From: Amycolatopsis sp. DSM 110486
GTDB taxonomy: Bacteria; Actinomycetota; Actinomycetes; Mycobacteriales; Pseudonocardiaceae
Assembly (NCBI RefSeq): GCF_019468465.1
Contig: NZ_CP080519.1
Location: 5,474,001 to 5,538,000 of the forward strand
Direction: 5' to 3'
DNA: 64,000 nucleotides
In this document: one piece after another, positions 28,494-59,825 of the stretch
How the letters are laid out: the number at the start of each line of letters is the position of its first letter
Position numbering within the stretch: position 1 is the stretch's first letter
Program-made: the position numbers and the translations under genes
The notes under the pieces: generated by a model
Told to the model about the DNA's origin: nothing
The model's input: only the letters and a program-made list of their open reading frames with translations
Databases searched by the model: none

Positions 28494-29387
28494 TCACTCG
28501 ACGCACAACGCCACCGCCTGCCTCCGTCGCCGCGAAACGGCGACACCCACGAGCACCACGACCATCCCCACCACCACCCGCGGCCCGATCTCCTCGCCCA
28601 GCACCACGGCGCCGAGCACCACCGACACCACCGGCAGCAGATACCCGACCGTCGCCGCCGTCGTCGGCCCCTCATCGGCAATCAGGCGGTAGTTCAAGTA
28701 GAACGTCACACCGGTCCCGAACACCCCGAGCACCACCACGGCCACCACCGACAACACCGTGACGTGCGGCGAAGACGACGAACCGACCGGCAACGCCAGC
28801 GCACTCAGCCCCGTCGCCGCCTGCAGCTGCGCGGCCGACAGGGCCAACGGCTCCGTCCCGCGACCCACGAGCTTCCGCCCCATGTACGCGTACGCGACCG
28901 CATAACTCACCGCCGCGCCGAGCAGCGCGAGCGAACCCCAGTTCGCCAGCCCGGTCTGCGTCCACGGCGCGAAGATCAGCAACGTCCCCGCAAACCCGAT
29001 CAGCAGACCCGCGAGCCGCGTCGGCCGGATGCCGCGCTCGCCGCCGAGCGCGAGGCCGATGAGCAGTGACCACAGGGGAGTGGTCGAGTTCAGCACGCCG
29101 GCCACGCCGGAGTCAACGGTCCGCTCGCCCATCGCGAACAACGCGAACGGCACCGCGTTGCACAACAACGCCGCGACCGTCAGCCGCCCCCATGTCGTCC
29201 GGTCCCGGGGCAGCTTCTGCCGCGCCGCCACCGCGAGTCCGAGCAGCACCAACGATCCGAGCGCGCACCGGATCACCGTCACGAACACCGGCGAAAAGCC
29301 TTCGAGGGCGAGTTTGATCCACAGGAACGTCGAGCCCCAGAGCACGGCCAGCGCCGCCATCCGCACCACTGTGCCGCTGCCGGACAC
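28494..29387 (-). CDS. EamA/DMT-family drug/metabolite transporter
   Basis: 297 residues, ten hydrophobic helices in two repeats. Repeat 1 begins ALAVLWGSTFLWIKLALEGF and repeat 2 LALLGAAVSYAVAYAYMGRK. EamA landmarks are LNSTTPLWSLLIG and LLPVVSVVLGAVVLGE. GTG 29387 is preceded by AGGGGGAG and is preferred to upstream frames lacking membrane character. Substrate unknown; such proteins usually export amino acids or metabolites. Confidence 0.88.
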   Translation of the reverse strand: MSGSGTVVRMAALAVLWGSTFLWIKLALEGFSPVFVTVIRCALGSLVLLGLAVAARQKLPRDRTTWGRLTVAALLCNAVPFALFAMGERTVDSGVAGVLNSTTPLWSLLIGLALGGERGIRPTRLAGLLIGFAGTLLIFAPWTQTGLANWGSLALLGAAVSYAVAYAYMGRKLVGRGTEPLALSAAQLQAATGLSALALPVGSSSSPHVTVLSVVAVVVLGVFGTGVTFYLNYRLIADEGPTTAATVGYLLPVVSVVLGAVVLGEEIGPRVVVGMVVVLVGVAVSRRRRQAVALCVE

Positions 29388-29944: not shown

Positions 29945-30048
29945 TCGCCACTGAACGGCGAACGGCGCGAGCCGTCGCCACTGAACGGCGACAACCGTCA
30001 GCCTCCGGCGAAAACCCCGGCCGGACACCCATCGCCGCCAAACGGCAA
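29945..30048. repeat. Three copies of the dispersed 17-bp palindrome
   Basis: Copies at 29945-29961 and 29975-29991 (both TCGCCACTGAACGGCGA, identical) and 30032-30048 (TCGCCGCCAAACGGCAA). They sit between the mmcQ-like start and the methyltransferase stop, 21 bases after that stop on the minus strand. See the findings for the whole family. Confidence 0.8.
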
Positions 30049-30700: not shown

Positions 30701-31705
30701 TCACACCCCGTGCTTCGTCGAGCCGCCGACCAGCGCGGCAACCTGTCGTTCCATTTCGTGCGCGAAAGGCTCCCGCGCGCGTCGTACGTCCTCGGCCACG
30801 AGATCGCCGTTGATCACCGCGCCGGCCGTCAGCCCGGCCGCCGCGGCAACGACGACCTGCGACTTCATGTCGGTCACGTTCCCGGCCACCCACACCCCGG
30901 GCACCGAGGTGGCGCCGTTCGCGTCGGCCGGCACCGAGCTGCCGATCACGTGCCCGTCGACCTCGAGCTCCACGGGCTCCAGCCCCAGCGACACGAGCAC
31001 GTCGGCCCGCGCCGTGAACCGCGGCGCGACCACCACGGCCTCCCGCGCCACCACCTCGCCCGAGCGCAGCACGACTCCGGTGAGCGCGTCGTCTTCCACG
31101 CGAAGCGCTGCCACCTCGCCGTCGACGACGCGGATCCCGCGCGCGGTCAGCTGCGCGAGCTGTTCCTCGTCGAACGCAGCCGTGTGCCGGAAAACGACGA
31201 CGTCGTCCGACAGCTGCCGCCACATCAGCGCCTGATGGACGGCCATCGGGCTCGTCGCCAGCACGCCGATCGCCTGGTCACGCGCCTCCCAGCCGTGGCA
31301 GTACGGGCAGTGCAGCACGTCGCGGCCCCACCGCTCGGCGACGCCCGGGACGTCCGGCAGCTCGTCGACGAGCCCCGTTGCCACCAGGAGGCGACGCGCC
31401 CGCGTGGTCCTCCCATCGGCGAGAGTCACGGCGAACCCGCCGCCGTCCAGCGCGACGGCCGCGGTCACCGCGCCGGCCACGATCTCGCCCCCGTACCCGA
31501 TAACCTCTTCGCGCCCGGCAGCCAGCAGCTCGCCGGGCGGCGTGCTTTCGCGGGCGAGGTAGTTGTGCACATGGCCGGCCGGAGCGTTGCGCGGCTCGCC
31601 GGCGTCCACCACCAGCACGGAACGCCGTGAGCGCGCAAGCGCCACCGCGCCGCTGAGGCCCGCGGCGCCGCCGCCGACCACTACGACGTCGTAGTTCTCG
31701 TTCAC
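30701..31705 (-). CDS. Thioredoxin-reductase-like FAD/NAD(P) oxidoreductase
   Basis: 334 residues. The FAD motif is VVVVGGGAAGLSGAVALARS, the redox pair is CPYCHGWEARD near residue 140 and the C-terminal FAD contact is VWVAGNVTDMKSQVVVAAAA. This is the thioredoxin reductase fold with CPYC instead of the CATC of true TrxB, as in actinobacterial oxidoreductases encoded next to XRE-cupin regulators. Followed by a methyltransferase and divergent from the XRE-cupin gene that probably controls it. Confidence 0.88.
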   Translation of the reverse strand: MNENYDVVVVGGGAAGLSGAVALARSRRSVLVVDAGEPRNAPAGHVHNYLARESTPPGELLAAGREEVIGYGGEIVAGAVTAAVALDGGGFAVTLADGRTTRARRLLVATGLVDELPDVPGVAERWGRDVLHCPYCHGWEARDQAIGVLATSPMAVHQALMWRQLSDDVVVFRHTAAFDEEQLAQLTARGIRVVDGEVAALRVEDDALTGVVLRSGEVVAREAVVVAPRFTARADVLVSLGLEPVELEVDGHVIGSSVPADANGATSVPGVWVAGNVTDMKSQVVVAAAAGLTAGAVINGDLVAEDVRRAREPFAHEMERQVAALVGGSTKHGV

Positions 31706-33421: not shown

Positions 33422-34144
33422 TCAGGTCTGGGCCGTCGGCCGAACCACGATCTCGTTCACGTCCACCGCCGCCGGCTGGCTCACGGCGTAAGCGATGGCG
33501 TCCGTAACGGCCGAAGCCGGGATGCCCAGCTGCTCGCTCGCCGCACGCGCCGCCGCCTGCGTCTCGGGGTCGCCGCCCTGGTCGGCGAGCTCGGAGTGCG
33601 TGAAGCCCGGGCTGACGATGGTGACGCGGATGTTCGTGTTCTCCTGGCGCAGGCCTTCGGAAAGCGCCCGCACCCCGAACTTCGTCGCGCAGTACACGGC
33701 CGCCGTCGGGTCCACGCGCAGGCCGGACGTCGACGCGACATTCACGATGTGCCCCCCGGTTTCGCCCATCAGCGGCAACACGGCGGCGATCCCGTGCAGC
33801 GTGCCGCGCAGGTTCACGTCGATCATGCGGTTCCAGTCGTCGACGCGGAGCTTGTCCAGAGTGGACAGCGGCATCACGCCGGCGTTGTTCACCAGCACGT
33901 CCACTCGGCCGTGGGTCTCGTGCGCGGCCGCCACGAACGCGCGCACGCTCTCCAGGCTGGTCACGTCCAGTTGCCGGAAGTCGGCATCACCGCCGTTCGC
34001 GCGGACTTTCTCCGTGAGCGCCGCGAGCCGGTCGGTGCGGCGCGCGCCTAGGACGACGTGGTGACCGTCGGCGGCCAGGCGCAGCGCGGTGGCCTCCCCG
34101 ATGCCGCTGCTCGCGCCTGTGATCAGCGTGATCTTGCCGTTCAT
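33422..34144 (-). CDS. Short-chain dehydrogenase/reductase (classical SDR)
   Basis: 240 residues. The cofactor motif is LITGASSGIGEATAL with GARRTDR following beta-2 (suggests NADPH), then NNAGVM, catalytic Ser in VNVASTSGLR and YCATK as the Tyr-x-x-x-Lys pair. GAGGAG precedes ATG 34144. Close to YdfG-type reductases. The divergent or downstream XRE regulator at 34261 lies on the same strand, 116 bases upstream. Confidence 0.9.
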   Translation of the reverse strand: MNGKITLITGASSGIGEATALRLAADGHHVVLGARRTDRLAALTEKVRANGGDADFRQLDVTSLESVRAFVAAAHETHGRVDVLVNNAGVMPLSTLDKLRVDDWNRMIDVNLRGTLHGIAAVLPLMGETGGHIVNVASTSGLRVDPTAAVYCATKFGVRALSEGLRQENTNIRVTIVSPGFTHSELADQGGDPETQAAARAASEQLGIPASAVTDAIAYAVSQPAAVDVNEIVVRPTAQT

Positions 34145-34260: not shown

Positions 34261-35082
34261 TCATCGCCGCAGGTCGGCCACCTCGTGCAACGACCCCAGC
34301 AACGCCAGCGCGTCGGCACTCGCGCTGTTCGGCTCCGCGATGCCCACCAGCAGGTACTGGCCGGACGCGTCGCGCACGTCGAACGTCTGGTAGTCCAGCA
34401 CGATCCGCCCGACGGCGGGGTGGTGGAACGTCTTGCGCGTACCCGCGAGCCCCTTCACACCGTGGTTTCGCCACAGAACGGCGAATTCCTCGCTCGTGGC
34501 CAGCAGCTCGTCCACGAGCTCGCCGACCTCCTCGCGGTCGTAGCCGCTCGCGAGCCGCAACGCATCGACGGCGCTGGCCACGATGTCGTCCCACTCCACG
34601 AACAGCTCGCGCGCTGCCGGGTCGTCGAACAGCGTGCGCACCATGTTCGCCGGCTTGCCGACGGGGGACAGGAGCGCGTCGGCGAGCTCGTTGGTCGCCA
34701 GCAGGTCGAGGCGCCGATTGGCGACGTATGTGACCGCGTTGGGGAAGGTGTCCATGAGCCGCAGCAGCTCGGGGGAGACGTCGTCGCGCCGGTGGTCCGG
34801 CACACGCGGCACGAGCCCGGCGAGGCGGTAGGCGTGCCAGAGGCCATCGGCGTTCAGCCGCAGCGCCCGCCCGATCGCGTCCAGCACCGGCCCGGACGGG
34901 TTGCGCTCGCGCCCCTGCTCGAGGCGCGCGTAGTAGTCCGCGCTGACGCCCGCCAGCACCGCGACCTCCTCGCGCCGCAGCCCGCTCACCCTCCTCGGGC
35001 GATGACTGGTCACGCCCGCGTCCTCGGGCGCCAGCCGGGCCCGCTGCGCGCGCAGGAATTCTCCCAGCTCGTTGCCGCTCAC
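34261..35082 (-). CDS. XRE-family regulator with MmyB-like ligand domain
   Basis: 273 residues. HTH LRREEVAVLAGVSADYYARL followed by EQGRERNPSGPVLDAIGRAL; the C-terminal half (about 100-270: NAVTYVANRRLDLLATNELA, then FHHPAVGRIVLDYQ) is the MmyB-like PAS-related domain thought to bind a small ligand. In many actinobacteria such regulators control a neighbouring SDR gene, here immediately downstream. Start GTG 35082. Confidence 0.87.
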   Translation of the reverse strand: MSGNELGEFLRAQRARLAPEDAGVTSHRPRRVSGLRREEVAVLAGVSADYYARLEQGRERNPSGPVLDAIGRALRLNADGLWHAYRLAGLVPRVPDHRRDDVSPELLRLMDTFPNAVTYVANRRLDLLATNELADALLSPVGKPANMVRTLFDDPAARELFVEWDDIVASAVDALRLASGYDREEVGELVDELLATSEEFAVLWRNHGVKGLAGTRKTFHHPAVGRIVLDYQTFDVRDASGQYLLVGIAEPNSASADALALLGSLHEVADLRR

Positions 35083-35234
35083 GTCACCACGGTACCGGGC
35101 GCTCCGGCTTCCCGACGGTGCTGTCCAAGCGGTATCACCGCAGGCAGAACGGGCTTTGGATCTGGCGAAACTCCGCAATGGCCAAAGGGAATCCGACGTC
35201 ACCGGCAAGCGGCTGGCGCCTCGCCGAGGTCGTT

Positions 35235-35275
35235 GCCGGAAATCGGCGACACCGAGGTCAGCGCCGATTTCCGGC
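35235..35275. terminator. Inverted repeat after the YqeY-like gene
   Basis: A perfect 14-bp stem, GCCGGAAATCGGCG at 35235-35248 and its complement at 35262-35275, with a 13-base loop. It lies 25 bases past the YqeY stop on the minus strand. The rest of the 217-base gap up to 35299 shows nothing else. Confidence 0.6.
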
Positions 35276-35740: not shown

Positions 35741-36643
35741 TCACCTCGCGCGCACACCCGAAAACGGGAATGTCCCGCCACCTGAAATCGTCACCGATCC
35801 GGTGAACACGTCACCGTCGACCGTGCCCACCACGCCGATGTCGAACCGCGCCGGATCGGTCACCACGGCGGTGAACTCCAGCCGATCACCGGCGACACTG
35901 CCCGACACGATGGGGACCGTCACGCCCAGCTGAGTGTCCACGATGGACCCAGCCACGCCGTCGGCGACGGTTTCGAGGTTCAGCACCAGCTCCTTGCTCC
36001 CCGCGGGGTGCGTGAAGGTGATGTGCCACGTCCCGTCGGCGCCGGTTTCGCCGCTGAACGGCAACGCGCCGGCCACGACCGCCTCCGCGACGACCGCCGG
36101 CGCCACACGCTCGCCCAGCACCGGCTGCCCCGGCTTCACCTCGACCCCCGCGGAGTTCAGGAACCCCGCCATCATCCGGTAGTAGCCGACAAGGAACAGC
36201 ACCTCGAGGATCGTCGCCTCATCGAGCGTCGACGCGAGCGCCGCCCATGTTTCGTCCGAGACGAACGCCGCGGTGCACAACTCGTCGGCCGCCCGCAGCA
36301 CCGCGTCGTCCTCCGGCGACCACGACGCGGCCGGGTCCGACAACGCGTTGATCTCGTCCGCCGTCGCGCCGGCGCCGAGCGCGGCGGGCACGTGGTTGGC
36401 CCATTCGTACGGCGCTTCACACCGCAGCGCGACCCGTAAGATCGCCAATTCCCGGACACGCGGGTGCAGCTTGCCTTGAGACAGCAGGTGTTCGCCGAGA
36501 CTCGACGAAGCCTTCATCAACGACGGGTTCCGCGCGAGCACCCGGATCACCTCGTCGGCACCGAGTTTCGCGAGCTTCTGCTCCTTCGGCGCCATTTCCT
36601 CCAACGGAAGCGGCGCGATCCGGGGATGGGTTGCATGAGGCAT
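35741..36643 (-). CDS. Carboxymuconolactone-decarboxylase-like protein fused to a beta domain
   Basis: 300 residues. The N-terminal part (about 1-175) is an AhpD/CMD helical domain: NPSLMKASSSLGEHLLSQGK, then LHPRVRELAILRVALRCEAP, and EVLFLVGYYRMMAGFLNS. Only one Cys of the AhpD CxxC is present (RCEAPYEWANH), so peroxidase activity is doubtful. The C-terminal part (about 195-300) is a beta-rich domain beginning ALPFSGETGADGTWHITF and ending GGTFPFSGVRAR. Both ends carry PFSG, and the first is a copy of the 17-bp palindrome (36048-36064). GGGAGGAA precedes ATG 36643, 18 bases after the TetR stop. Confidence 0.78.
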   Translation of the reverse strand: MPHATHPRIAPLPLEEMAPKEQKLAKLGADEVIRVLARNPSLMKASSSLGEHLLSQGKLHPRVRELAILRVALRCEAPYEWANHVPAALGAGATADEINALSDPAASWSPEDDAVLRAADELCTAAFVSDETWAALASTLDEATILEVLFLVGYYRMMAGFLNSAGVEVKPGQPVLGERVAPAVVAEAVVAGALPFSGETGADGTWHITFTHPAGSKELVLNLETVADGVAGSIVDTQLGVTVPIVSGSVAGDRLEFTAVVTDPARFDIGVVGTVDGDVFTGSVTISGGGTFPFSGVRAR

Positions 36644-39675: not shown

Positions 39676-41304
39676 TCAGGCCGTCGGCCGCCCCGCGCCG
39701 GCGTAGTCGTCGCCGGGCTTGCGGTACGGGTGCACCTGCACGGCCTGGCCCGTCTGCGGGGCGTCGATCATCTGCTGGTTGCCGATGTAGAGGCCGACGT
39801 GGTGGATCTTCGTGGTGGGTTCACCGTAGAAGATCAGGTCGCCCAGCTGGGGTTCACTTACGTGGGCGACGCTGTGGAACTGCGTGTCCGCCGTGCGCAT
39901 GAGCTTCACGCCCGCGCTGCCGTACGCGGCCGTCGTCAGGCCGGAGCAGTCGAAGCCCGGATCGGGGTCGCCGCTGCCGTTGCCGCCCCACACGTAGGGA
40001 AGACCGATCTGGTCGATCGCGAAGTCGACCGCGCTCAGCACGGCGGGGTTCGGCGCCTGGCCGCTCTGCCCGACGGTGCCGTACACGTTCACTGTCGCCA
40101 GGATCCGGTGCAGCGAAACGGGCGCGCCCTGCAGCGACGAAACGGCGTTCCACCAGTCTGTCGCCAAATCGCGGCCACCCGCGCACAGTGCGCGACCCGC
40201 GGTGAGGGCGGCGTCGTCGATGTTCTGCGGATCGGGCTTGCCGCCCGACGCGCTGCGCTGCCACTTCGACCACACCGCCGGCGCCAGCTGCATCGGCCCG
40301 GACGCGTTGGCCGTCGACACGACGCGGCCGTAGAAGTCGCGGACCTCGACGGTGCCCAGCGGCTTGGTCAGCACGCCGTCGGTGCCGACGTGATCGCCCT
40401 GCGCCCGCCCGTGGTCGCTCGCGACCTTGCCGACGGCCGCGAGCGTCACCCACGACAGGTGGCACGCGGGTTGTTCCTTGGTGAGCGTGACGGTCGCCTG
40501 CGCGTACCCCGTCATCGCCCGAAGCGGGATGTCCAGCCACTGGCTCGTCTTCGACGCCCACGCGTCGAACTCACTGGGTTGCGGCACGTTCGGCTGCGTC
40601 GTCGGCACCGCCGCACTCGACGCGGCCACCGACGGCACCGGCGCCTGCGCTGACGACGACGGCTCGGCGGCCGTGGTCGCGACCTGCTCCGACCCCGGCG
40701 CGAACTGCACGGCCACCACCAGCGCCGCGACAGCCACGACGACCGCCGCGACCACCACCGCCGCCCGCCCCCGCCGCGACTTCCGCTTCCCGACCTGGGG
40801 CTTCTCGCCGTCGCCACTCAGCGGCGACAGGTGCTCCGTCATCGCCGAGGAGAACGGCGGCAGCGGCTCGACCGGAGCCGAAAACACGCGCCCGACCTGG
40901 CCGTCGCCGCTGACTGGCGACGTTTCCAAGCCGGCCTTTTCTCCATCGAGCGGCGACGCGCCACCGCTCTCGTCGCCATCCAGAGGCGACAGTCCGGCGG
41001 GTTCCCTGCTGTTGCCCTTCATCGGCGACGCCGCGATGGTCTGGTCGTCGCCATCCAACGGCACGTCAGCCTGGGCGTCGCCAGCGAGTGGCGAAAACTC
41101 GGTGCTCGCCGTGTCGTCGCCTCTGAGTGGCGACGGCTCGGTGATCTGGTCGCCATTGACGGGCGACTCGGCGCCGGCCGAGTTGTCGCCTTCAATCGGC
41201 GAAGGCCCGCTGACCTGGCCATCGCCGCTGATCGGCGACACCGCGTTCTCACCGTCGCCACCCAGCGGCGACGGCTGCGAACCGCCCGGCGACCCCGCCA
41301 TCAC
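39676..41304 (-). CDS. Bitopic cell-wall hydrolase: SP-x-x-GD repeat tail, TM, transglycosylase-like and NlpC/P60 domains
   Basis: 542 residues. The first about 165 residues are cytoplasmic by topology and consist of a degenerate 10-13-residue repeat (SPISGDGQ, SPIEGDNS, SPVNGDQI, SPLRGDDT, SPLDGEKA), each encoded by a copy of the 17-bp palindrome. Then basic KRKSRRGR, a membrane helix AAVVVAAVVVAVAALVVAVQ, and a Ser/Pro/Ala linker. A lytic-transglycosylase-like domain follows (ANASGPMQLAPAVWSKW). The C-terminal NlpC/P60 domain has catalytic Cys in GFDCSGLTTAAY and His in KIHHVGLYIGN. Start GTG 41304 overlaps the nucleoside hydrolase stop. Cleaves peptidoglycan stem peptides by family. Confidence 0.87.
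   Translation of the reverse strand: MMAGSPGGSQPSPLGGDGENAVSPISGDGQVSGPSPIEGDNSAGAESPVNGDQITEPSPLRGDDTASTEFSPLAGDAQADVPLDGDDQTIAASPMKGNSREPAGLSPLDGDESGGASPLDGEKAGLETSPVSGDGQVGRVFSAPVEPLPPFSSAMTEHLSPLSGDGEKPQVGKRKSRRGRAAVVVAAVVVAVAALVVAVQFAPGSEQVATTAAEPSSSAQAPVPSVAASSAAVPTTQPNVPQPSEFDAWASKTSQWLDIPLRAMTGYAQATVTLTKEQPACHLSWVTLAAVGKVASDHGRAQGDHVGTDGVLTKPLGTVEVRDFYGRVVSTANASGPMQLAPAVWSKWQRSASGGKPDPQNIDDAALTAGRALCAGGRDLATDWWNAVSSLQGAPVSLHRILATVNVYGTVGQSGQAPNPAVLSAVDFAIDQIGLPYVWGGNGSGDPDPGFDCSGLTTAAYGSAGVKLMRTADTQFHSVAHVSEPQLGDLIFYGEPTTKIHHVGLYIGNQQMIDAPQTGQAVQVHPYRKPGDDYAGAGRPTA
40811..41271. repeat. Twelve in-frame copies of the 17-bp palindrome inside the NlpC/P60 gene
   Basis: Copies start at 40811, 40904, 40940, 40973, 41012, 41048, 41078, 41117, 41150, 41186, 41222 and 41255. 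Spacings are 93, 36, 33, 39, 36, 30, 39, 33, 36, 36 and 33, all multiples of three. The arms TCGCC/GGCGA are conserved while the seven central bases vary (ACTCAGC, GCTGACT, ATCCAGA, TTCAATC, ACCCAGC). Confidence 0.88.
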
Positions 41305-42248
41305 CGGCCCCCGGCAAGTCTCGAAAGCACGAACTCCCGCAGCCCGTCGAGGTCGGTGTCGACAGCGACCTCGATCGGCCGTCCCGTCGGATCGATCGGC
41401 ACCGCGCGGCGATCGACGAGCGTCATTCCGCGCGCCGGCCCCGCGGTCACGTCGATGTCCACCGGGTAGGTCTCCGTCTGCAGAATCCCGGGGTTGATCG
41501 CCTCCGCGACGGCCACCGCGTCGTGCATCACGATGCCGTCGAAGCCCAGGACCTGCCGGTAGTGGGCGAGGTAGTCGGGCGTCAGCCCTTCCAGCGTCTG
41601 GCCCAGCGGCCCCGACGAGGCGAGCTTCGCCAGCCACGCGCTGTCCACGGCGCAGCGGTGCGTGAGATCGAGGGGGACCATCACGCACGGCACGTCGTCC
41701 TCGGCGATCACGCGGCGCGCGGCTTCGGGGTCGGCCCAGATGTTGAATTCGGCGACGGCCGTGCTGTTGCCGCGCGCGACGCCGCCGCCCATCAGCACGA
41801 TGCGCGAGATCTTCGACTTGACGCCGGGGTGCGCGGCGAGCAGCGCGGCGATGTTGGTGAGCGGTCCGATCGGCGCGATCGTCACCGGTTCGTCGGACGC
41901 TTCCAGCAGCGAGACCATCAGCCCCACGGCGTCCAGCGACTCCAACGGCCGCTTCGCCTCGGGCAGCGTCGCGGCGTGGCCCGAGAGCCCGTCGTTGCCG
42001 TGGACGTGGCTCGAACCGCGTTTGTTCAGGTGCACCAACGGCCGTGAAGCCCCGGCGGCGACCGGCACGTCGGGGCGGTCGCACAGCTGGAGCAATCGCC
42101 GCGCGTTGGCGGTGGTGCTGGTCAGCGGCACGTTGCCGAAGACCGTCGTCACCCCCAGCAGTTCGACGTCGGCGGAAACCGCCGCCAGCGCGATCGCGAA
42201 AGCGTCGTCGACACCGGGGTCGGTGTCGATGATCAGCTTGCTCCCCAT
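41301..42248 (-). CDS. Inosine-uridine-preferring nucleoside hydrolase
   Basis: 315 residues. Calcium-binding signature KLIIDTDPGVDDAFAIALAA (residues 4-23), VTTVFGNVPL, SHVHGNDGLSG and MGGGVARGNSTAVAEFNIWA, with a late HDAVAVA contributing catalytic His/Asp. Splits ribonucleosides into base and ribose for salvage. CAAGGGGAG precedes ATG 42248. First gene of an operon with the NlpC/P60 gene (four-base overlap). Confidence 0.92.
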   Translation of the reverse strand: MGSKLIIDTDPGVDDAFAIALAAVSADVELLGVTTVFGNVPLTSTTANARRLLQLCDRPDVPVAAGASRPLVHLNKRGSSHVHGNDGLSGHAATLPEAKRPLESLDAVGLMVSLLEASDEPVTIAPIGPLTNIAALLAAHPGVKSKISRIVLMGGGVARGNSTAVAEFNIWADPEAARRVIAEDDVPCVMVPLDLTHRCAVDSAWLAKLASSGPLGQTLEGLTPDYLAHYRQVLGFDGIVMHDAVAVAEAINPGILQTETYPVDIDVTAGPARGMTLVDRRAVPIDPTGRPIEVAVDTDLDGLREFVLSRLAGGR

Positions 42249-42301
42249 CCGTGCTCCCCTTGCCTGTGGCGGGCGTCCCTGCACAGGTTACGGTCATCGG
42301 C

Positions 42302-43061: not shown

Positions 43062-43125
43062 TTGCCACTCTGCGGCGACGACCTGGTTGTCGCCGCTGAA
43101 CGGCAACTTGGCCATCCAGCGGCGA
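43062..43125. repeat. Three copies of the 17-bp palindrome between convergent genes
   Basis: 43062-43078 (TTGCCACTCTGCGGCGA), 43090-43106 (TCGCCGCTGAACGGCAA) and 43109-43125 (TGGCCATCCAGCGGCGA). They fill the 75-base gap between the acyltransferase stop (5 bases before) and the permease stop (8 bases after). Possibly a composite terminator. Confidence 0.8.
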
Positions 43126-44467: not shown

Positions 44468-45345
44468 CGGGCTCCTTCTCCTCGCGGACGCCACCGGTCC
44501 GGCTCGATGCGGCCCCCGTACAGGGGGAGTTCCAGCGGTTTGTCACCCGGCGTGAACTGGTCCCACATCCGGTTGACGCCGGCGGTCCCTTCGCGACGGA
44601 CGCGGGCGACCTCGTCCAGGTCGACCGTGCTCGCGAGCACGCCGGACGCGGCGCCCGGCAGCTCGCCGAGCACGGTGCCCTCGGGGTCCACCAGGATGCT
44701 GTCTCCTACCCCGACGGGCCCGGCCGTATTCACGCTCGCCACGAAAACCTGGTTGGTGATCGCGTTGGCGCGCGCGAGCACGAGCTCCTGCGCGCGGTCG
44801 GGAGTGGTGGTCTGCACCGGGTTGAGCACGAGCTCCGCGCCGAGCCACGCGAGGTGGCGCGTGACCTCGGGGAACCAGGCGTCGTAGCAGATCGAGAAGC
44901 CGATTCGCCCCGCATCGGCGAGATCGGCGACCACGAAACGGTCACCCGGGTCATAAGGCTCATACGGCCGCCACGGGAACACCTTGCGGTAGCTGCCGGA
45001 CAGCTCGCCTTCAGGGGAGAAGACGAGAGCGGTGTTGAACAGCTCGCCGTGCTCGCCGCGTTCGCAGACGCTGCCCGGCGAAAGCCACACGCCGAGGTCG
45101 CCGGCCAGCTGGGCCAGGTCGCGGGTTCGCGGGCCGTCGAGGGGCTGCGCGGCGGCGTTGAGCTGCTCGGCGCGTTCGTCAGCGGTCCCTTCGACACCGC
45201 AGAGGTGCAGTTCGGGAAAGGCGACGAGGCGGGTTCCGGGGTGCTCGGCCAGCACGGTCCCGACCTGCTCCGCGAACGCCACGACGGACTCGGTGTACGG
45301 CCGCGGTGGCAACTGTGCCAGCGCGATCGGCAGGGGGCGGGGCAT
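44464..45345 (-). CDS. Carbon-nitrogen hydrolase (nitrilase superfamily amidase)
   Basis: 293 residues. The catalytic triad is Glu45 in FPELHL, Lys121 in SYRKVFPWRP and Cys153 in FSICYDAWFPE. It would hydrolyse an amide or N-carbamoyl bond. In an operon with an APC permease and divergent from a GntR regulator: an import-and-degradation module for an amine or amide. Substrate not deducible. Confidence 0.9.
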   Translation of the reverse strand: MPRPLPIALAQLPPRPYTESVVAFAEQVGTVLAEHPGTRLVAFPELHLCGVEGTADERAEQLNAAAQPLDGPRTRDLAQLAGDLGVWLSPGSVCERGEHGELFNTALVFSPEGELSGSYRKVFPWRPYEPYDPGDRFVVADLADAGRIGFSICYDAWFPEVTRHLAWLGAELVLNPVQTTTPDRAQELVLARANAITNQVFVASVNTAGPVGVGDSILVDPEGTVLGELPGAASGVLASTVDLDEVARVRREGTAGVNRMWDQFTPGDKPLELPLYGGRIEPDRWRPRGEGAR

Positions 45346-45422: not shown

Positions 45423-46148
45423 ATGGCTGCCGACCTGGGTTCACCGGCGCTGACGGGCATCCGGCGCCTGTCCGCGCTCGAGACCGTGCGGGCCCGCATC
45501 GCCCTCGCGATCGAGCTGGGCCTGCTGGGCCCGGGGGAGCGGTTGCCGCCCAACGGCGAAATCGCGCGCGCGCTGGGCGTCGGCGACATCACCGTGCGCC
45601 GGGCGCTGGTGTCCTTGTGCGAAGACGGCGTGCTGGTGCGCCGCCGCGGCCGCAACGGCGGCACGAGCGTCGCCCCCGACGCGCCGGCGGGCCGGGTCGG
45701 CGCGGTGAACGCGTACCGCGAGTCGGCGGACGAGGTCCACGACCTGATCGACCACCGGCTCGTTATCGAGGCGGGGCTCGTCCAGCTCGTCGCCACGCGG
45801 CGAACCGACGAGGACGTCGACCGGCTGCGTGACCTCGTCCGCCGCATGGACGACGCCGCCGGGTGGGCCGAGTTCCACGAGCTCGACGCCGAGTTCCACC
45901 TCGCCGTGGCCGCCTCGGGCGCGCCGGCGGCGGCGGTGAGGCAGTACGAACTCGTGCTGCGGGAGCTGTACCGCTTCTACCTGCCGTACCGGATGTCGGC
46001 GCTGCGGGCGTCCAACCGGGAGCACGAGGTGCTCGTCCGCGCGATCGCCACGCGCAATCCCGACGAGGCGGCGATCATGACCCGCGCCCACGTCGGTGAT
46101 CTGCACCGGACGATGTTCGTCGGCCTGCCGGACGTGACAGGTTCCTGA
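45423..46148 (+). CDS. GntR-family regulator (FadR/FCD subfamily)
   Basis: 241 residues. Winged helix LPPNGEIARALGVGDITVRR followed by ALVSLCEDGVLVRRRGRNGG; FCD domain with DLIDHRLVIEAGLVQLVATR, metal-ligand-type positions in ELDAEFHLAVAA and late ASNREHEVLVRAIATRN. Divergent from the nitrilase-permease operon, which it probably represses. Confidence 0.9.
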   Translation: MAADLGSPALTGIRRLSALETVRARIALAIELGLLGPGERLPPNGEIARALGVGDITVRRALVSLCEDGVLVRRRGRNGGTSVAPDAPAGRVGAVNAYRESADEVHDLIDHRLVIEAGLVQLVATRRTDEDVDRLRDLVRRMDDAAGWAEFHELDAEFHLAVAASGAPAAAVRQYELVLRELYRFYLPYRMSALRASNREHEVLVRAIATRNPDEAAIMTRAHVGDLHRTMFVGLPDVTGS

Positions 46149-46236: not shown

Positions 46237-47709
46237 ATGATCATCACCATGCCGAAGTTCCGTTTACTCGTCCCGGTTGTCGCGGCCGTCGCGATGGTCC
46301 CCCTCGTGCCGGCGCTCGCGTCCGCGCAAGGGCTCGACTGGAAACCCTGCGTGTCCATCGCGAAGGGCTGGGACTCCGACGACCAGCGCACCGAGTGCGC
46401 GCTGGTGACCGTGCCTCTCGACTACTCCGACCCCGGCGGCCGCACGATCGACATCGCCGTCAGCCGAATCCGCGCGACGGGCACGCGCACGGGCGCGATC
46501 GTGTTCAACCCCGGCGGCCCCGGCCAATCGGGCATGAAGATGCCGCTCACGATGTCGGAGAGCAAGGCGTCCGGCCTGCTGGAGCACCACGACCTCATCG
46601 GCTTCGACCCGCGCGGCGTCGACTACAGCGCGAGCCTCCAGTGCGACGACGACGACGCCCAGCCCGACCCGTCGTTGTCCGAAAAGGACCAGGCGCGGTT
46701 CCTCGCCGACCACAAGGCCGCGGCCAACGCGGCGTGCTTCGCGAAGGACCCCGCGCTCGTGAAGTCGTTCACCACGCCCAACATCGCCCGCGACGTCGAC
46801 CGCATCCGCGAAGCGCTGGGCGAACAGAAGATCGGTTACTACGGCGTCTCCTGGGGCACGGCCCTCGGCGCCGAGTACCGGACGCTCTTCGACAGCCACG
46901 TCGACAAGATGCTGCTCGACTCCGTCATGCCGCCCGAGCTGAGCGTCACGACGATGGACGACGACCAGGCCGCCGCGGGAGAGAACACGTTCCGCGAGTT
47001 CGCCGCGTGGGTCGCGCGCTACGACTCCGTCTACCACTTCGGCGGCATCGAACCCCAGGTCGAGAAGGCTTTGCTCGACCTGCGCGCCGAACTCGCCGCG
47101 CACCCGCGCACCGGCCCCGACGGTTCGCCGCTCAACGGTGAAACCGTCAACCAGTTCTTCGCCTACCCGCGCCGCCAGTGGGTGGAGGCCGCCAGCCAGC
47201 TCGCCGCCATCCGCGACGGCGGCGCTCCGGCAGCACAGCCCGACGCCGCAACCTCGCTGAAAACCGGCTTCGGCTGGGACACCGAACGGACCGGTGGCAA
47301 TTTCTTCCAGCAGAACGCACTGCTCTGCAACGAATCACCCAGCCCCCGCGACTTCGACACGGTCTGGCAGCACCGCCTCGACCGCATCAAGGCCAACCCG
47401 GTCGCCGGCTCGTTCGGCGTCTACGAGCAGATGTGCGTCGGCTGGCCAGTGCCCGCGACGCAGTGGCAGTTCAGCGCCGGCAAGAGCCCTCTGCAGCTCG
47501 TCGGCCACGCCTTCGAGCCGGTCACGCCCATCGGCTGGGCCCTCGCCATGCAACGGCAAATCGGCGGCTCCCTCATGACCGTCGAAGACGACGCCCACGG
47601 CTCGCTCTCGAGCCTGCCCTGCGCCGCCGCGGCCGTGACGTTCTTCGACACCGGCCAGACGACCACGCAGTCCTGCCCCGGCGAGCCGATCCCGGCTCCG
47701 AAGGCGTAG
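46237..47709 (+). CDS. Secreted S33-family peptidase / alpha/beta hydrolase (TAP-like)
   Basis: 490 residues with signal peptide LLVPVVAAVAMVPLVPALAS. Fold landmarks: GAIVFNPGGPGQSG (oxyanion side), LIGFDPRGVD, nucleophile in YYGVSWGTALG near residue 205, and His in VEDDAHGSL, with a C-terminal TAP-like domain containing CAAAAVTFFDTGQ. Related to Streptomyces tripeptidyl aminopeptidases. The segment DGSPLNGETVNQ is encoded by a near copy of the 17-bp palindrome (47125-47141), and the stop codon TAG lies in another copy. Confidence 0.88.
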   Translation: MIITMPKFRLLVPVVAAVAMVPLVPALASAQGLDWKPCVSIAKGWDSDDQRTECALVTVPLDYSDPGGRTIDIAVSRIRATGTRTGAIVFNPGGPGQSGMKMPLTMSESKASGLLEHHDLIGFDPRGVDYSASLQCDDDDAQPDPSLSEKDQARFLADHKAAANAACFAKDPALVKSFTTPNIARDVDRIREALGEQKIGYYGVSWGTALGAEYRTLFDSHVDKMLLDSVMPPELSVTTMDDDQAAAGENTFREFAAWVARYDSVYHFGGIEPQVEKALLDLRAELAAHPRTGPDGSPLNGETVNQFFAYPRRQWVEAASQLAAIRDGGAPAAQPDAATSLKTGFGWDTERTGGNFFQQNALLCNESPSPRDFDTVWQHRLDRIKANPVAGSFGVYEQMCVGWPVPATQWQFSAGKSPLQLVGHAFEPVTPIGWALAMQRQIGGSLMTVEDDAHGSLSSLPCAAAAVTFFDTGQTTTQSCPGEPIPAPKA

Positions 47710-48105: not shown

Positions 48106-48122
48106 TTGCCGTTCAGTGGCAA
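48106..48122. repeat. 17-bp palindrome copy after the SnoaL-like gene
   Basis: TTGCCGTTCAGTGGCAA, 6 bases after the stop. It is between convergent genes and may form a small terminator hairpin. Confidence 0.7.
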
Positions 48123-52772: not shown

Positions 52773-54380
52773 ATGGCCGACAAGCTGAACTACCGCATCG
52801 AAATCACCGGTCCCGCCGGTGACCGGTTCGCCGAGATCCTCACCCCGGCCGCGCTGGAGTTCGTGGCCAAGCTCGACAACGCCTTCGCCGGCCGCCGCCG
52901 CGAGCTGCTCGACGAGCGCCGTCGCCGTCGCGAGCGCGTGAAGACGGGGGAGGAGCAGCTGGACTTCCTGCCCGAGACACGCCGCATCCGCGCCGACGAC
53001 AGCTGGCGCATCGCGCCGCCGGCGCCCGGTCTCGAGGATCGCCGCGTCGAGATCACCGGCCCGACGGACCGCAAGATGACCGTCAACGCCCTGAACTCCG
53101 GCGCGAAGGTCTGGCTCGCCGACTTCGAGGACGCGACTTCGCCGACGTGGCACAACATCGTCGACGGCCAGCTGAACCTGTTCGACGCCATCCGCCGCAA
53201 CATCGACTTCACCACCGAGTCGGGCAAGCACTACACGATCGGCGACGACCCGGCGACGATCGTCGCCCGCCCGCGCGGCTGGCACCTGGTGGAGAAGCAC
53301 ATCCGCATCGACGGTCGCCCCCTGTCGGCGAGCCTGGTCGACTTCGGGCTGTACTTCTTCCACAACGCGCGCCAGCTGATCGCGCGCGGCAGCGGCCCGT
53401 ACTTCTACCTGCCGAAGCTCGAGAACCACCTCGAGGCGCGCCTGTGGAACGACGTTTTCCTGTTCGCGCAGCAGGAGCTCGGTATCCCGCGGGGCACGGT
53501 CCGCGCGACCGTGCTGATCGAAACGATCACCGCGGCGTTCGAAATGGACGAGATCCTCTTCGAGCTGCGCGAGCACGCTGCCGGCCTCAACGCGGGGCGC
53601 TGGGACTACATCTTCAGCGTCATCAAGAACTTCTCCGAGCACGGCGCCGACTTCGTGCTGCCGGACCGCGCGCAGGTCACGATGACGGTCCCCTTCATGC
53701 GTGCCTACACCGAACTGCTGGTCCGCACGTGCCACCGCCGCGGCGCGCACGCGATCGGCGGGATGGCAGCTTTCATCCCGAGTAAGGATCCTGACGCCAA
53801 CGCGACTGCGTTCGAGAAGGTCCGCCAGGACAAGGAACGCGAGGCGGGCGACGGATTCGACGGCTCGTGGGTCGCGCACCCCGGCCTGGTCCCCGTCTGT
53901 CGCGAGGTCTTCGACAGCGTGCTGGGCGGCTGGCCCAACCAGCTGGGCCGCCTGCGTGAGGACGTCGACGTCACCGCCGCGGACTTGCTCGACGTCGCCT
54001 CCGCCGGCGGCGAGGTGACCGAGGCCGGCGTTCGCGCCAACATCAACGTCGCCCTGCGCTACATCGACTCCTGGCTGCGCGGCACGGGCGCCGCCGCGAT
54101 CCACAACCTCATGGAAGACGCCGCGACGGCCGAGATCGCGCGGTGCCAGGTGTGGCAGTGGATCCGCAACGGCACGAAGTTCGCGGACGGCACAGCGTTG
54201 ACGCGCGAGCTTGCCGTGGAGTTCCTGGACGACGAGTTCGAGTCGGTCCGCGCCGATCTGCCCGCCGGCCACCGCCTCGACGACGCCCGCGCCATCTTCA
54301 CCGAGACCGCCTTGGGCGAGAAGCTCCCGGGCTTCCTCACGACGAGCGCCTACGCCCGCCACCTGTGCGACGCGCGGTGA
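52773..54380 (+). CDS. aceB: Malate synthase A
   Basis: 535 residues, the length of the MSA isoform. [20 protein letters not shown] then [20 protein letters not shown]; catalytic-base and Mg residues in [20 protein letters not shown] and [16 protein letters not shown]-terminal [20 protein letters not shown]. It condenses glyoxylate and acetyl-CoA to malate. CGGAGG precedes ATG 52773. Most actinobacteria carry MSG (glcB); having the A type next to aceA is one of two common arrangements. Confidence 0.95.
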
Positions 54381-54502: not shown

Positions 54503-54748
54503 TTGCCGTCCAGTGGCTAGGCGCTGGTGGGCGGCGCTTTTTGGGTCTGTCCCCTGGGTGGCGATGGCTCTGTTGCCGCTGATCGGCGACAGGCTCCGGA
54601 GCTGCCATTTCGACGTGCCGGCGCAGATCGCCGGGGGTCATCCATCGGCTGCGCGGTACAGCTACGGCTCGCCATTGAGTGGCGATTTGTCGACGAACGC
54701 GCCGATCGCCGTTCAGCGGCGACGGCCCAGCCGGCCGCTCATCGGCGA
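54503..54748. repeat. Cluster of 17-bp palindrome copies between aceB and a TetR gene
   Basis: Good copies at 54573-54589 (TTGCCGCTGATCGGCGA), 54669-54685 (TCGCCATTGAGTGGCGA) and 54706-54722 (TCGCCGTTCAGCGGCGA). Degenerate ones at 54503-54519, 54548-54564 and 54732-54748. The last ends 3 bases from the TetR stop. The 260 bases hold no gene. The densest non-coding cluster in the window. Confidence 0.78.
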
Positions 54749-55941: not shown

Positions 55942-56724
55942 ATGAGCCTGGGATTCAGCGGAGAAGTCACGGAGTTCTACCACCGCTACCGCCGCGGTTA
56001 CCCGACGGCGGTGTTCGATGCGATCGCCGCCGAGTTCGCCCTGGCCGGGGACGACGTGGTCCTCGACCTCGGGTGTGGCACGGGACAGCTCGCCGTGCCG
56101 ATGGCTGCGCGGGTCCGCGCGGTCGCGGGCATGGACCCATCGTCCGACATGCTTTCGCGCGCCCGCCGCGCCGCGGCCGACGCCGGCGTGACCAACGCGT
56201 CGTGGCTCCTGGGTGGTGACACCGACGTCACCGCGCTGAATTCCCTGCTCGACGGGCTCGGCGCCGTCACCATCGGGCAGGCGTTGCACTGGATGGACCA
56301 CGCGACGCTGTTCGCCGCCGTGAAGTCGATGCTCCGGCCGGGCGGTGGCATCGCGGTAGTCACCAACGGTTCGCCGCTGTGGCGCCAGGACAGCGACTGG
56401 TCTCGAGCGCTGCTCGCCGTGCTGTCCGACTGGTTCGGCCAGCCCCTCACCGCGGCCTGCGGAACGGACGACGCCAGCCAGGACCGCTATCGCGCCGCGC
56501 TGGTCGGCGCCGGCTACGACGTCGGCGTCCGCACCATCGACTACACCGGCGACCTCACCGCGGACGAGATCATCGGCGGCGTCTACTCGGCCATGGGCGA
56601 GGACGAGTTGCCACCCAGCGGCGAACGGCCGGCCTTCGAGAACCGCATCCGTTCGGCGATCGAGCCCCACGCGCCGTTCCGCGAACCGGTTCGCGTGACG
56701 ATCCTGACCGGTCGCGTGCCCTGA
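55942..56724 (+). CDS. Class I SAM-dependent methyltransferase
   Basis: 260 residues. FSGEVTEFYHRYRRGYPTAV start, SAM motif VVLDLGCGTGQLAVPMAARV, MDPSSDMLSRARR and LRPGGGIAVVTNG. UbiE/methyltransf_11 type. The C-terminal peptide ELPPSGERPA is encoded by a copy of the 17-bp palindrome (56608-56624). Substrate unknown. Confidence 0.85.
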   Translation: MSLGFSGEVTEFYHRYRRGYPTAVFDAIAAEFALAGDDVVLDLGCGTGQLAVPMAARVRAVAGMDPSSDMLSRARRAAADAGVTNASWLLGGDTDVTALNSLLDGLGAVTIGQALHWMDHATLFAAVKSMLRPGGGIAVVTNGSPLWRQDSDWSRALLAVLSDWFGQPLTAACGTDDASQDRYRAALVGAGYDVGVRTIDYTGDLTADEIIGGVYSAMGEDELPPSGERPAFENRIRSAIEPHAPFREPVRVTILTGRVP

Positions 56725-56730
56725 GTCTTG

Positions 56731-56747
56731 TCGCCACTGAGTGGCAA
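56731..56747. repeat. 17-bp palindrome copy after the methyltransferase
   Basis: TCGCCACTGAGTGGCAA, extended by CTTG/CAAG on both sides (56727-56751), 7 bases after the stop and between convergent genes. Confidence 0.72.
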
Positions 56748-57506: not shown

Positions 57507-58139
57507 TCATCCCTTCCCGAGGAGCCGCATCACGGTCGCGTCGGACACCTGGGTGAAGTCGGCGTACCAGCGGCCCACGGCGCTGAATCGCCTCGGCGCG
57601 GCGACGGCGATGAACTGGTCCACCTCGCCCTCGAACTCGGCGATGGCGTCCGGCGCGCACACCGGCACGGCCAGCACCACGCGCCGCGCGTCGCGGAGGT
57701 CGCGGACGGCGGCCATCGCGGTCACGCCGGTCGCCAGTCCGTCGTCGATCACGAGCACGTCGTGGCCGGCCACTGCGACCTCCGGGCGCCCGTCGCGATA
57801 AGCCACCAAACGGCGACGCGCCTCGGCCCGCTCGCGCGCACACGCCGGCTCCATCGCTTTCGGCGTGAGCCCGAACGCGCGCAACGCCGGCATCGAGTAG
57901 TAAGGCGGCCCCTCCGCCGTCACCGCGCCGACGCCGAACTCGCGCCGCCCAGGGGCCCCGATCTTCCGGGCGACCACGACGTCCAACGGAGCCCCGAGCA
58001 CCCGGGCGACCTCGGCCGCCACCGGCACGCCCCCGCGCGGCAACCCGAGCACGACGGGCTCGACCCACGGCTGCCTGGCCAGGATCCGCCCGAGTTGCCG
58101 CCCGGCGTCGATTCGATCGAAGAACAACGTCCTCACCAC
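57507..58139 (-). CDS. Phosphoribosyltransferase-family protein
   Basis: About 210 residues. N-terminal VVRTLFFDRIDAGRQLGRIL, then PVVLGLPRGGVPVAAEVARV, and the PRPP-binding motif VLVIDDGLATGVTAMAA. This is the stand-alone type I PRTase group common in actinobacteria, often beside dienelactone-hydrolase or universal-stress genes. Start uncertain: GTG 58139 or 58136, or TTG 58157; none has a clear ribosome site. Confidence 0.82.
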   Translation of the reverse strand: MVRTLFFDRIDAGRQLGRILARQPWVEPVVLGLPRGGVPVAAEVARVLGAPLDVVVARKIGAPGRREFGVGAVTAEGPPYYSMPALRAFGLTPKAMEPACARERAEARRRLVAYRDGRPEVAVAGHDVLVIDDGLATGVTAMAAVRDLRDARRVVLAVPVCAPDAIAEFEGEVDQFIAVAAPRRFSAVGRWYADFTQVSDATVMRLLGKG

Positions 58140-58197: not shown

Positions 58198-58214
58198 TCG
58201 CCGAAAAACGGCGA
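58198..58214. repeat. 17-bp palindrome copy
   Basis: TCGCCGAAAAACGGCGA, extended by CAT/ATG on each side. An A-rich centre unlike other copies. Upstream of the phosphoribosyltransferase. Confidence 0.6.
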
Positions 58215-58571: not shown

Positions 58572-59825
58572 TCAGAGTTCGAACGCGTTGCCCGTCGCGA
58601 TCTTCGGGCGTCCCAGCTCGATCGGCTCGCCCATACGCGCGCGCCGGTAGACCTCCGCGGTCGCCTCGGCGATGCGTCCCCAGTCGAAGTCCGCCGCGAG
58701 GCGCGACTGGGCCGTTCGGGCGCGGCGGGTCGCGGCGGCGGCGTCGCTCAGGACGGTGGTGACTGCCGTGGCCAGACCCGCGACGTCGCCCGGTTCGAAG
58801 GCCAAGCCCGTCTCCCCGTCGACGACCACCTCGCCGAGGCCGCCCGCCGTCGACGCGACGAGCGGTGCCTTCGCGGCCGCGGCCTCCAGGGCGACGATCC
58901 CGAACGGTTCGTACCGGCTCGGCAGCACCACGGCGTCGGCCGCCGCCAGCAGCGCGCGCAGGTCACGGTCGGGGAGGTGGCCGACGAAGTCCACCGCGCG
59001 GCGAATCCGCAGCTTGCGCGCTTGCGCGACCAGCTCGTCGTGGTGTCGCCCCTTACCGGCGACGACCACCCGCGTGCCCGGGAACTGGCGACGGATGCGG
59101 GGGAGGGCGGCCAGCAGGTCCTGCACGCCCTTCTCCCACTCCAGCCGACCGAAGAACAGCAGGAACGGCGCGCCGTCGGGGCTGTGCCGTTCACGCATCT
59201 TCGCCACCTCGGCCGCCGAGACCCGCCAGCTGCGTTCTTCGATGCCGTTGTGGATCACGGTGACGTCGGCAGCGTCGATCTCGAACAGGTGCGCCACTTC
59301 CTTGCGCATCGCCTGCGAGCAGGTGATCACGGCGTCGGCGCGGTTGGCCAGCCACCACTCGACGGAATGCACCTGCTGGTTGAGCGGGTGCGAAAGCCAG
59401 CCCGAGTGCCGGCCGGCTTCGGTCGCGTGGACGGTGCCGACGAGCGGCACGCGCGCGGCCTCGGCGATGGCGATCGCCGGGTGCGTCACGAGCCAGTCGT
59501 GCGCGTGGACGACGTCGGGCTGCCACGTGCGCAGCAGGTCCTGCGCGGCGCGGATCATGGCGTGGCCCATGGCGAGCGTCCAGGCGACGAGGTCGCGCTC
59601 GAACGTCAGGTGCATCGGGTCCTCGGCCACGCGGATCAGCCGCACGCCCTCGACGTCGCGGTCGCTGCGCGGGTGCGTGGAGGCGTCGGTGCCGGCCTGA
59701 TGGCGGCAGAGAACCACCACGTCGTGGCCCTGCTGGGCGAGGTGCCGGGCCAGCGCGTGCACGTGCCGGGCGAGCCCGCCGATGACCACGGGCGGGTACT
59801 CCCACGACAGCATCAGCACGCGCAT
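58572..59825 (-). CDS. GT4 alpha-glucosyltransferase (Rv3032/GlgA-like)
   Basis: 417 residues. GT-B enzyme: LMLSWEYPPVVIGGLARHVH (donor-loop), HAHDWLVTHPAIAIAE, FFGRLEWEKGVQDLLAALPR and the EX7E motif YEPFGIVALEAAAAK. Close in pattern to mycobacterial Rv3032, which elongates alpha-1,4-glucan for methylglucose lipopolysaccharide and glycogen. ATG 59825. Divergent from the GH2 gene. A GH57 and a methyltransferase, matching Rv3031 and Rv3030, lie 2.5 kb away on the same strand. Confidence 0.88.
   Translation of the reverse strand: MRVLMLSWEYPPVVIGGLARHVHALARHLAQQGHDVVVLCRHQAGTDASTHPRSDRDVEGVRLIRVAEDPMHLTFERDLVAWTLAMGHAMIRAAQDLLRTWQPDVVHAHDWLVTHPAIAIAEAARVPLVGTVHATEAGRHSGWLSHPLNQQVHSVEWWLANRADAVITCSQAMRKEVAHLFEIDAADVTVIHNGIEERSWRVSAAEVAKMRERHSPDGAPFLLFFGRLEWEKGVQDLLAALPRIRRQFPGTRVVVAGKGRHHDELVAQARKLRIRRAVDFVGHLPDRDLRALLAAADAVVLPSRYEPFGIVALEAAAAKAPLVASTAGGLGEVVVDGETGLAFEPGDVAGLATAVTTVLSDAAAATRRARTAQSRLAADFDWGRIAEATAEVYRRARMGEPIELGRPKIATGNAFEL

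Follow-up and report, generated by a model that had tools for sequence, protein, structure and literature searches.

A short palindromic site concentrated in one chromosomal domain of an Amycolatopsis clade, with a candidate DUF222 reader and an in-frame array in an NlpC/P60 gene

Introduction

Short recurrent DNA sites have been described on bacterial chromosomes in several settings. The Noc-binding sites (NBSs) of Bacillus subtilis are distributed around most of the chromosome, and PMC5441646 counts 23 matS sites, the sites of MatP, in the Ter macrodomain of Escherichia coli. Recurrent elements of another kind are the Rickettsia palindromic elements (RPEs), which PMC10969869 describes as elements of about 150 bp inserted in unrelated genes; PMC10589994 places the REP13E12/DUF222-HNH family of mycobacteria among repetitive elements. 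Here we analyze a palindrome of 17 bp, TCGCC-N7-GGCGA, in a 64,000-nucleotide stretch of the Amycolatopsis sp. DSM 110486 chromosome (hereafter, the window; G000:C1:5474001-5538000, in a genome of about 11 Mb). Coordinates are in window numbering unless prefixed G000:C1 or with another genome handle.

An initial annotation, made from the letters of the window, had drawn attention to copies of this palindrome inside the gene of an NlpC/P60 protein. The feature is real, with DNA driving the peptide, and the larger object is very probably a regional system of dyad sites of which the peptide is a by-product. The reading towards which we lean is that the site marks a chromosomal domain, is read by a DUF222 protein and is kept by selection on its arms, the peptide tail of the NlpC/P60 protein being a passenger.

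Results

The site is concentrated in one region of the chromosome

The window contains 77 palindrome matches with at most one mismatch, compared with a mean of 4.98 (standard deviation 2.75, maximum 14) in 100 shuffles. In the whole G000 genome, 101 strand matches of TCGCCNNNNANNGGCGA were found, and 24 of the listed rows lie outside 5.50-5.67 Mb. The domain is one stretch of about 165-170 kb, around which 400 kb of the G000 chromosome were fetched. Counted per 20 kb from 5.50 Mb, strict sites number 14, 9, 5, 9, 7, 0, 6, 5 and 1, versus 0-1 elsewhere in the fetched sequence. The spacer is fixed at seven bases: the domain (about 170 kb) harbors 102 relaxed sites with this spacer, and 2-13 with spacers of 4-6 and 8-10. 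Gene calls were home-made and based on third-position G+C content (GC3), so that "intergenic" is approximate; with this proviso, 58 relaxed sites are intergenic (0-2 with other spacers), 10 are in the NlpC/P60 gene and 34 are in other genes. The latter class has 1-12 matches with other spacers, which indicates that part of the coding matches are due to chance. Genes outside NlpC hold 22 strict sites, and these use all three reading frames. Tandem arrays are also found outside genes, with periods of 48-49 and 95-97 bp in Tandem Repeats Finder (TRF) and sites down to 22-26 bp apart in places.

Concentration of the site in a single chromosomal region was observed in G000, G028, G034, G026, G012 and G001. 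The domain is ordinary core genome, syntenic with G030, a genome free of the cluster, and its translations point to genes resembling ilv, leu, serA, gatCA, ppk, recG and coaD. In five genomes, dnaA is located 1.74-2.00 Mb from the cluster midpoint, which is 34-46% of the half-chromosome. The replication terminus had been suggested by the proximity of the cluster to the half-way coordinate of the G000 contig; this idea was rejected as dnaA is only 1.86 Mb away. The parS consensus TGTTTCACGTGAAACA was found in none of five genomes, and was therefore unusable as an origin marker. A script scan of the 400 kb for an actinobacterial dif consensus gave no match. One exact scan of viral contigs returned eight contigs with a single match each, which we read as background.

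The site belongs to one clade, with one nested relative nearly devoid of it

Among 80 Amycolatopsis genomes, 16 show 9-33 forward matches of TCGCCNNTNANNGGCGA, and the other 64 show 0-5 (0-4 for a control). When 297 genomes from the family were scanned, 26 of them from the genus Amycolatopsis, no genome from outside the genus had more than four matches. At the level of named NlpC orthologue loci (n = 51), eight carry 5-11 strict in-frame palindromes before the membrane helix, namely those of A. saalfeldensis, jejuensis, echigonensis, rubida, nivea, dendrobii, circi and orientalis DSM 43388, and 43 carry none. In an NlpC tree of 81 rows, built without G091 and with some species present under two handles, the 19 rows with at least two upstream palindromes form one group (support 100/99).

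The genome left out of that tree, G091, is a close relative of the window genome with conserved synteny, and its NlpC protein is 86% identical. A tree of 14 concatenated proteins of the region places it within the bearing clade as sister to G000 and G028 (support 100); forcing it outside the clade costs 131.8 log units (approximately unbiased (AU) test, p 1e-70). G091 has three relaxed sites in 240 kb and two forward matches genome-wide, and the N-terminus of its NlpC protein, of about 18 residues, has no tail. The counterparts of site-bearing gaps are far shorter in some cases (586 to 62 bp, 693 to 44 bp) and longer in others (1352 to 2063 bp). We read G091 as a secondary loss of the DUF222 gene, the sites and the tail, the alternative being separate gains in three lineages. 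In G030, the five relaxed TCGCC sites found in 320 kb are background; four of them fall in two gaps whose G000 counterparts carry sites.

The arms are conserved in intergenic copies

When intergenic copies were compared between G000 and G028, differences were found at 32 of 554 arm positions, 67 of 392 core positions and 598 of 3231 flank positions; random placement in local intergenic sequence gave 87.9 differences for the arms (standard deviation 8.7). The figures for G012 and G026 are 29/618, 89/434 and 661/3114, with a null of 118 (standard deviation 10). Intergenic arms of both species pairs are hence less divergent than core and flanks, by factors of about 3 and 4.5. Relative to isolated TCGCC/GGCGA 5-mers near the sites, the gain in conservation is about two-fold (5.3 vs. 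10.0%; 4.7 vs. 12.0%). Coding copies give no clear answer on selection, with 6/330 arm, 14/231 core and 142/1971 flank differences in the G000/G028 pair and 9/110, 3/77 and 83/633 in the G012/G026 pair; selection on DNA is clearest outside genes. The coding sites of G000 are not kept in more distant relatives.

One rival explanation is that the sites form RNA hairpins or act as bidirectional transcription terminators at gene ends, as many of them lie at 3' ends and a stem of 5 bp with a loop of seven bases is possible. In the core, however, opposed positions pair about as often as expected or less (47 vs. 51.3 and 30 vs. 43.1), the small surplus (65 vs. 58.9) being that of positions 8-10. Pairing is not in excess at -1/+1 and -2/+2, though it is at -3/+3 (90 vs. 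72.4). A T is tolerated at position 2, yet TTGCC..GGCAA, the double variant that would compensate for it, shows no surplus (3 vs. 8.0, 0 vs. 6.9, 0 vs. 11.2 and 0 vs. 4.1), a depletion that becomes weaker when sites are thinned to more than 150 bp apart (3 vs. 4.2 in G000; 0 vs. 5.9 in G012). Copies inside genes, and in one region only, also argue against hairpins or terminators, and we consider this explanation extremely improbable. Conserved intergenic arms together with a core that lacks hairpin covariation make the element look like a protein-binding dyad, and the sites are very probably dyads of this kind, under selection.

Variant TTGCC occurs more often on the strand that is read away from dnaA (25:18, 34:12, mirrored 35:17 and 16:7 in the domains of G000, G012, G026 and G034, respectively). 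This bias is inflated by arrays, and may reflect replication-biased deamination or strand-biased mutation.

Sites are frequent between convergent genes

In G000, intergenic sites are present in 10 of 16 convergent gaps and in 10 of 78 other gaps; in G012, the corresponding fractions are 10/14 and 9/51. Densities per kb in convergent, tandem and divergent gaps are 2.81, 1.07 and 0.45 in G000, and 1.99, 2.00 and 0.78 in G012. The bias holds therefore per gap in both genomes and per kb in G000 only. A comparison of gaps between the two genomes found 10 with sites in both, 3 with sites in one only and 48 with sites in neither.

Repetitive extragenic palindromes (REPs) often lie in gaps between convergent genes. 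A mobile palindromic repeat that hops locally, be it of the REP, miniature inverted-repeat transposable element (MITE) or RPE kind, would agree with the occupancy of so many convergent gaps and with the existence of tandem arrays, and its arms might seem conserved simply because intact copies are recent. The initial annotation had also thought of an RPE-like generator of protein repeats. This idea does not fit a unit of 17 bp that is intergenic mostly, nor the G000/G028 alignment, in which 92 sites could be compared (10 others remained unaligned) and no clean insertion of 17 bp was seen. Furthermore, divergence of the cores is as fast as that of the flanks, unlike that of intergenic arms, and some coding sites align gap-free to site-less G030 sequence. 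A gene for Y1_Tnp, the REP-associated tyrosine transposase (RAYT), was found in none of the four genomes searched, under conditions in which the control gave a signal in 5 of 14. We thus regard a mobile repeat as very unlikely.

The array in the NlpC/P60 gene

The NlpC/P60 protein gene (39676..41301, reverse strand) encodes 541 residues arranged as tail, membrane helix, further region and NlpC/P60 domain, the latter at 39715-40005 (residues 433-529; Pfam NLPC_P60, 2e-23). The topology was inferred from hydropathy, which predicts a transmembrane helix at 40702..40764 (reverse strand). The N-terminal tail that precedes it (40765..41301, reverse strand) has 179 residues and is built around 12 in-frame palindrome copies. 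Upstream is a gene for an inosine-uridine nucleoside hydrolase (41301..42284, reverse strand; Pfam IU_nuc_hydro, 1.3e-89) whose stop overlaps the ATG of the NlpC/P60 gene (TGATG).

Positions and translation confirm twelve copies spaced by multiples of three that encode SPxxG(D/E), as initially proposed, with one VPLDGD and one SPMKGN as exceptions. The arms had been considered invariant around a variable centre, which is true of nine copies with both arms perfect (40811..40827, 40904..40920, 40973..40989, 41078..41094, 41117..41133, 41150..41166, 41186..41202, 41222..41238 and 41255..41271) but not of the remaining three: the copy at 40940..40956 has one arm TCTCC, that at 41012..41028 has one arm TTGCC, and that at 41048..41064, the source of VPLDGD, has GGCAC, with two mismatches, as second arm. 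The units had also been thought to make up most of the tail; their hexapeptides account for 72 of the 179 residues before the helix, and the statement is true only if linkers are counted.

That the DNA palindrome generates the tail peptide was borne out by codon usage. The Ser codon of the tail units is TCG in 126 of 128 cases and the Gly codon is GGC in 124 of 128, while in the protein body TCG accounts for 119 of 353 and GGC for 247 of 559; tail copies are related to one another, and a Fisher p on these counts is not to be taken literally. Tail length ranges from 123 to 406 residues in fifteen bearing orthologues, and the N-termini of eight sampled non-bearing orthologues have 4-34 residues. 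Among orthologues, copy number and spacing vary while the protein body is conserved. All copies share one frame in 14 of 15 loci with copies in the stretch compared, G034 being the exception; in this count the stretch was shortened for several loci, a single copy is present in two loci, and two pairs belong to the same species. In the tail, arms differ at 2/80 positions, core at 24/56 and flank at 84/424 between G000 and G028, and at 5/80, 12/56 and 104/322 between G012 and G026. Whole-copy gene conversion would not allow the core to diverge in this way.

Conservation of frame and peptide across the clade might suggest selection on the SPxxG(D/E) peptide itself. However, synonymous arm positions are nearly fixed too, most copies are noncoding, core residues change fast, and G091 has the NlpC/P60 protein without a tail; we give next to no credence to this explanation. 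Fast change of the core bases and the tailless protein of a close relative also leave the proposal of a sensor or phosphorylation target unsupported. The refuting case proposed with the initial annotation, an SPxxG(D/E) tail devoid of the DNA repeat, was not found: none of the 43 named palindrome-free orthologue loci encodes SPxxG(D/E) before the helix.

A DUF222 protein is the candidate binder

The DUF222 gene lies outside the window at G000:C1:5550427-5551791 (about 76427-77791 in window numbering, reverse strand). Its product, of 454 residues, matches PF02720 at 9.1e-13, with 48.6 bits against a curated cut-off of 24.4. No Pfam family other than DUF222 was found at E 0.1, and hence none of the ParB sequence families. 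Two AlphaFold models of DUF222 proteins appear to resemble the ParB/Noc DNA-binding domain. Sites are spread on both sides of the gene, over about -60 to +60 kb, and continue at lower density to about +120 kb in genomes with sufficient coverage.

At the C-terminus of the product, the cysteines of an HNH module are kept and CDxDH, the catalytic motif of active HNH nucleases, is gone. CDxDH is absent from the 15 bearing-clade loci aligned (L215-L229) and from the 18 closest proteins, and present in 54 of 120 listed homologues. Among the matches listed for the 80 genomes, identity of at least 68% is found in the 16 bearing genomes only (G024 is cut by a contig end); the matches listed for other genomes, which for some of them leave out weaker ones, have 42-58%, and G091 has none. 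A TAG is found within the aligned DUF222 stretch in 10 of the 16 bearing genomes, near the N-terminus in the orthologues aligned, which we tentatively read as a sign that the start codon is located further downstream. Several other Amycolatopsis have at least 20-21 DUF222 matches, and copies aligned from three of them (L231, L237, L241) keep CDxDH; in the domain lineage, DUF222 copies number one or few and CDxDH is lost. No outstanding palindrome was detected in about 10 kb on each side of two multi-copy DUF222 genes of G020. Among the literature entries listed for DUF222, 13E12, Amycolatopsis palindromes, RPEs and domain motifs, none described the site or any DUF222 function.

Of the called G000 domain genes that three or more of five bearing relatives share, the DUF222 gene is the only one without any match in G091, where the aligned ends of the neighbour genes are 13 bp apart. 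Its product is probably the binder of the sites, a view with which the apparent ParB/Noc-like fold of the models agrees. A rival view is that the sites are bound by another protein encoded elsewhere, the loss of DUF222 in G091 being a coincidence. Several facts weigh on that side: gene content was compared within the domain only and with home-made gene calls, G091 represents one event, and an MFS gene (5624769) likewise has only a partial match in G091. The G091 matches of this gene and of an ABC fragment cover less than half. Altogether, we find a different binder unlikely, albeit worth bearing in mind. One specific candidate, an XRE-cupin regulator, was rejected: its matches in the site-bearing genomes G001 and G029 are at 61% only, and G091 has the regulator at 92% without sites.

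A second palindrome in the sister clade

In G030, which represents the cluster-free sister clade, the palindrome TGGTC-N8-GACCA is present in nine copies in 320 kb (G030:C1:4.40-4.72 Mb, e.g. G030:C1:4422134; L117-L126, L147-L152), none of them farther than 38 kb from the DUF222 homologue. Elsewhere, four copies were found in G003, four in G025, three in G063 and one in G062, several of them common by descent; G008, G091 and G000 have none and G012 has one. In 13 sister NlpC loci, TGGTC/GACCA arms are separated by N8 in 17 cases versus 4 with N7, 5 with N10 and 1 with N11, and 11 NlpC loci of the A. orientalis group have no TGGTC-N8-GACCA. Two observations weigh against a sister-lineage code: when one arm base is relaxed, a slight N8 excess is seen in non-sister genomes too, and the same kind of scan scored GTCCA-N3-TGGAC higher in G091. 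For these reasons, TGGTC-N8-GACCA as a sister-lineage site stays a lead.

A separate motif, GTCC-N5-GGAC, was detected 21 times in 80 kb of G091 (2.6 expected); in the DNA fetched, bearing and non-bearing species have it at similar density, G000, G030 and G026 included.

Other sites in the window and its surroundings

No relaxed site is found in 1-28500, the left-most being at 28527..28543. Intergenic sites lie at 29945..29961, 29975..29991, 30032..30048 (arm GGCAA), 35233..35249 (arm TTGCC) and 58198..58214, which is damaged in G028. Between convergent genes, sites are found at 43062..43078 and 54573..54589 (arm TTGCC), 43090..43106 and 56731..56747 (arm GGCAA), 48106..48122 (double variant TTGCC/GGCAA), 54669..54685, 54706..54722 and 61715..61731, the last one eight bases past a stop codon.

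Sites in called genes occur at 31378..31394, 45543..45559 and 56608..56624 (arm TTGCC), at 33762..33778, 36048..36064 and 47543..47559 (arm GGCAA), and at 34468..34484. Strict matches in called genes were found at 57588..57604, at 44905..44921, where the alignment to site-less G030 sequence is gap-free, and at 53315..53331, probably by chance and not kept in G026. The site at 59046..59062 is in a conserved gene, aligns gap-free in five relatives and is strict in G028, G012 and G034. Those at 60589..60605, in a gene, and at 63654..63670, in a conserved gene and gap-free to site-less G030 sequence, are strict in G028, G026, G012 and G034.

Other features were noted in passing. A cobalamin riboswitch match is followed by a palindrome array with spacings of 75 and about 120, and by pieces resembling an ABC transporter and a binding protein in several frames (L043:4070-4152 and L043:4361-6661); the whole suggests a degraded operon for a transporter. 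Two sequences of about 0.7-0.8 kb in the domain's site-free gap, G000:C1:5596250-5596913 and 5601605-5602397, each match the counterpart of the other in inverted orientation; G026 and G012 have them as well. Lastly, TGAAGG-N3-CCTTCA is enriched in the G000 and G028 domains (6 and 8 copies; 0.0 expected).

Discussion

The computed basis of our proposal is made of confinement of the sites, conserved intergenic arms, a core without covariation, restriction to one clade, joint absence in a nested relative and a gene-centred position; from it we infer that the DUF222 protein binds the sites and that the system helps to organize or anchor the domain. In such a scheme, a dyad whose half-site is roughly KTYGCCRYT, read towards the centre, would mark about 165 kb in one Amycolatopsis clade. 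The DUF222 protein, encoded mid-domain, would most likely bind the sites and work like Noc/NBS, ParB/parS or MatP/matS; it appears to join a ParB/Noc-like helical DNA-binding domain to an HNH module without CDxDH. The sites would be kept mainly via selection on the two arms and would multiply locally via tandem duplication. Where the NlpC/P60 gene begins, the array may have grown in three-base steps, in the one frame whose product is a soluble SPxxG(D/E) peptide; the resulting tail would be tolerated until the site system disappears.

A role of the system in chromosome or membrane organization is a tentative suggestion. Equally speculative is the extension to the family: DUF222 proteins might carry a ParB/Noc-type DNA-binding domain, and the branch with degenerate HNH might be a gene-centred chromosome marker with about 100 sites whose code changes with the protein, TGGTC-N8-GACCA being that of the sister lineage. 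If the proposal is right, it adds a dense chromosome-domain system in Actinobacteria and a first function for DUF222 proteins, and suggests a path from a repeated nuclease family to a DNA-organizing protein. It would also mean that a protein can be lengthened by hundreds of residues through nothing but selection on DNA sites, and G091 would offer a natural knock-out for comparison.

Comparison with described systems reveals likeness and divergence in each case. As in RPEs, a palindromic sequence is found in frame within a protein gene; unlike RPEs, which are elements of about 100-150 bp inserted as a unit, the Amycolatopsis site has 17 bp, is mostly intergenic, shows no insertions in aligned sites and is not present in frame in many unrelated genes. 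REP13E12 shares with our candidate the combination of DUF222 and HNH, but the DUF222 gene of bearing Amycolatopsis is one syntenic copy whose HNH is degenerate. Presence in gaps between convergent genes is reminiscent of REP/RAYT, with the difference that the sites are concentrated in one region and not genome-wide. Whereas NBSs are spread around most of the chromosome, the Amycolatopsis sites, about 100 in number, are gathered around the DUF222 gene in a single stretch; the arm sequence differs from that of parS. MatP/matS offers a parallel for short sites confined to one chromosomal domain. A MatP homologue was found in none of four genomes searched, with a positive control in E. coli; unlike the Ter macrodomain, the Amycolatopsis domain is not at the terminus (34-46% of the half-chromosome from dnaA in five genomes), and its sites are far denser.
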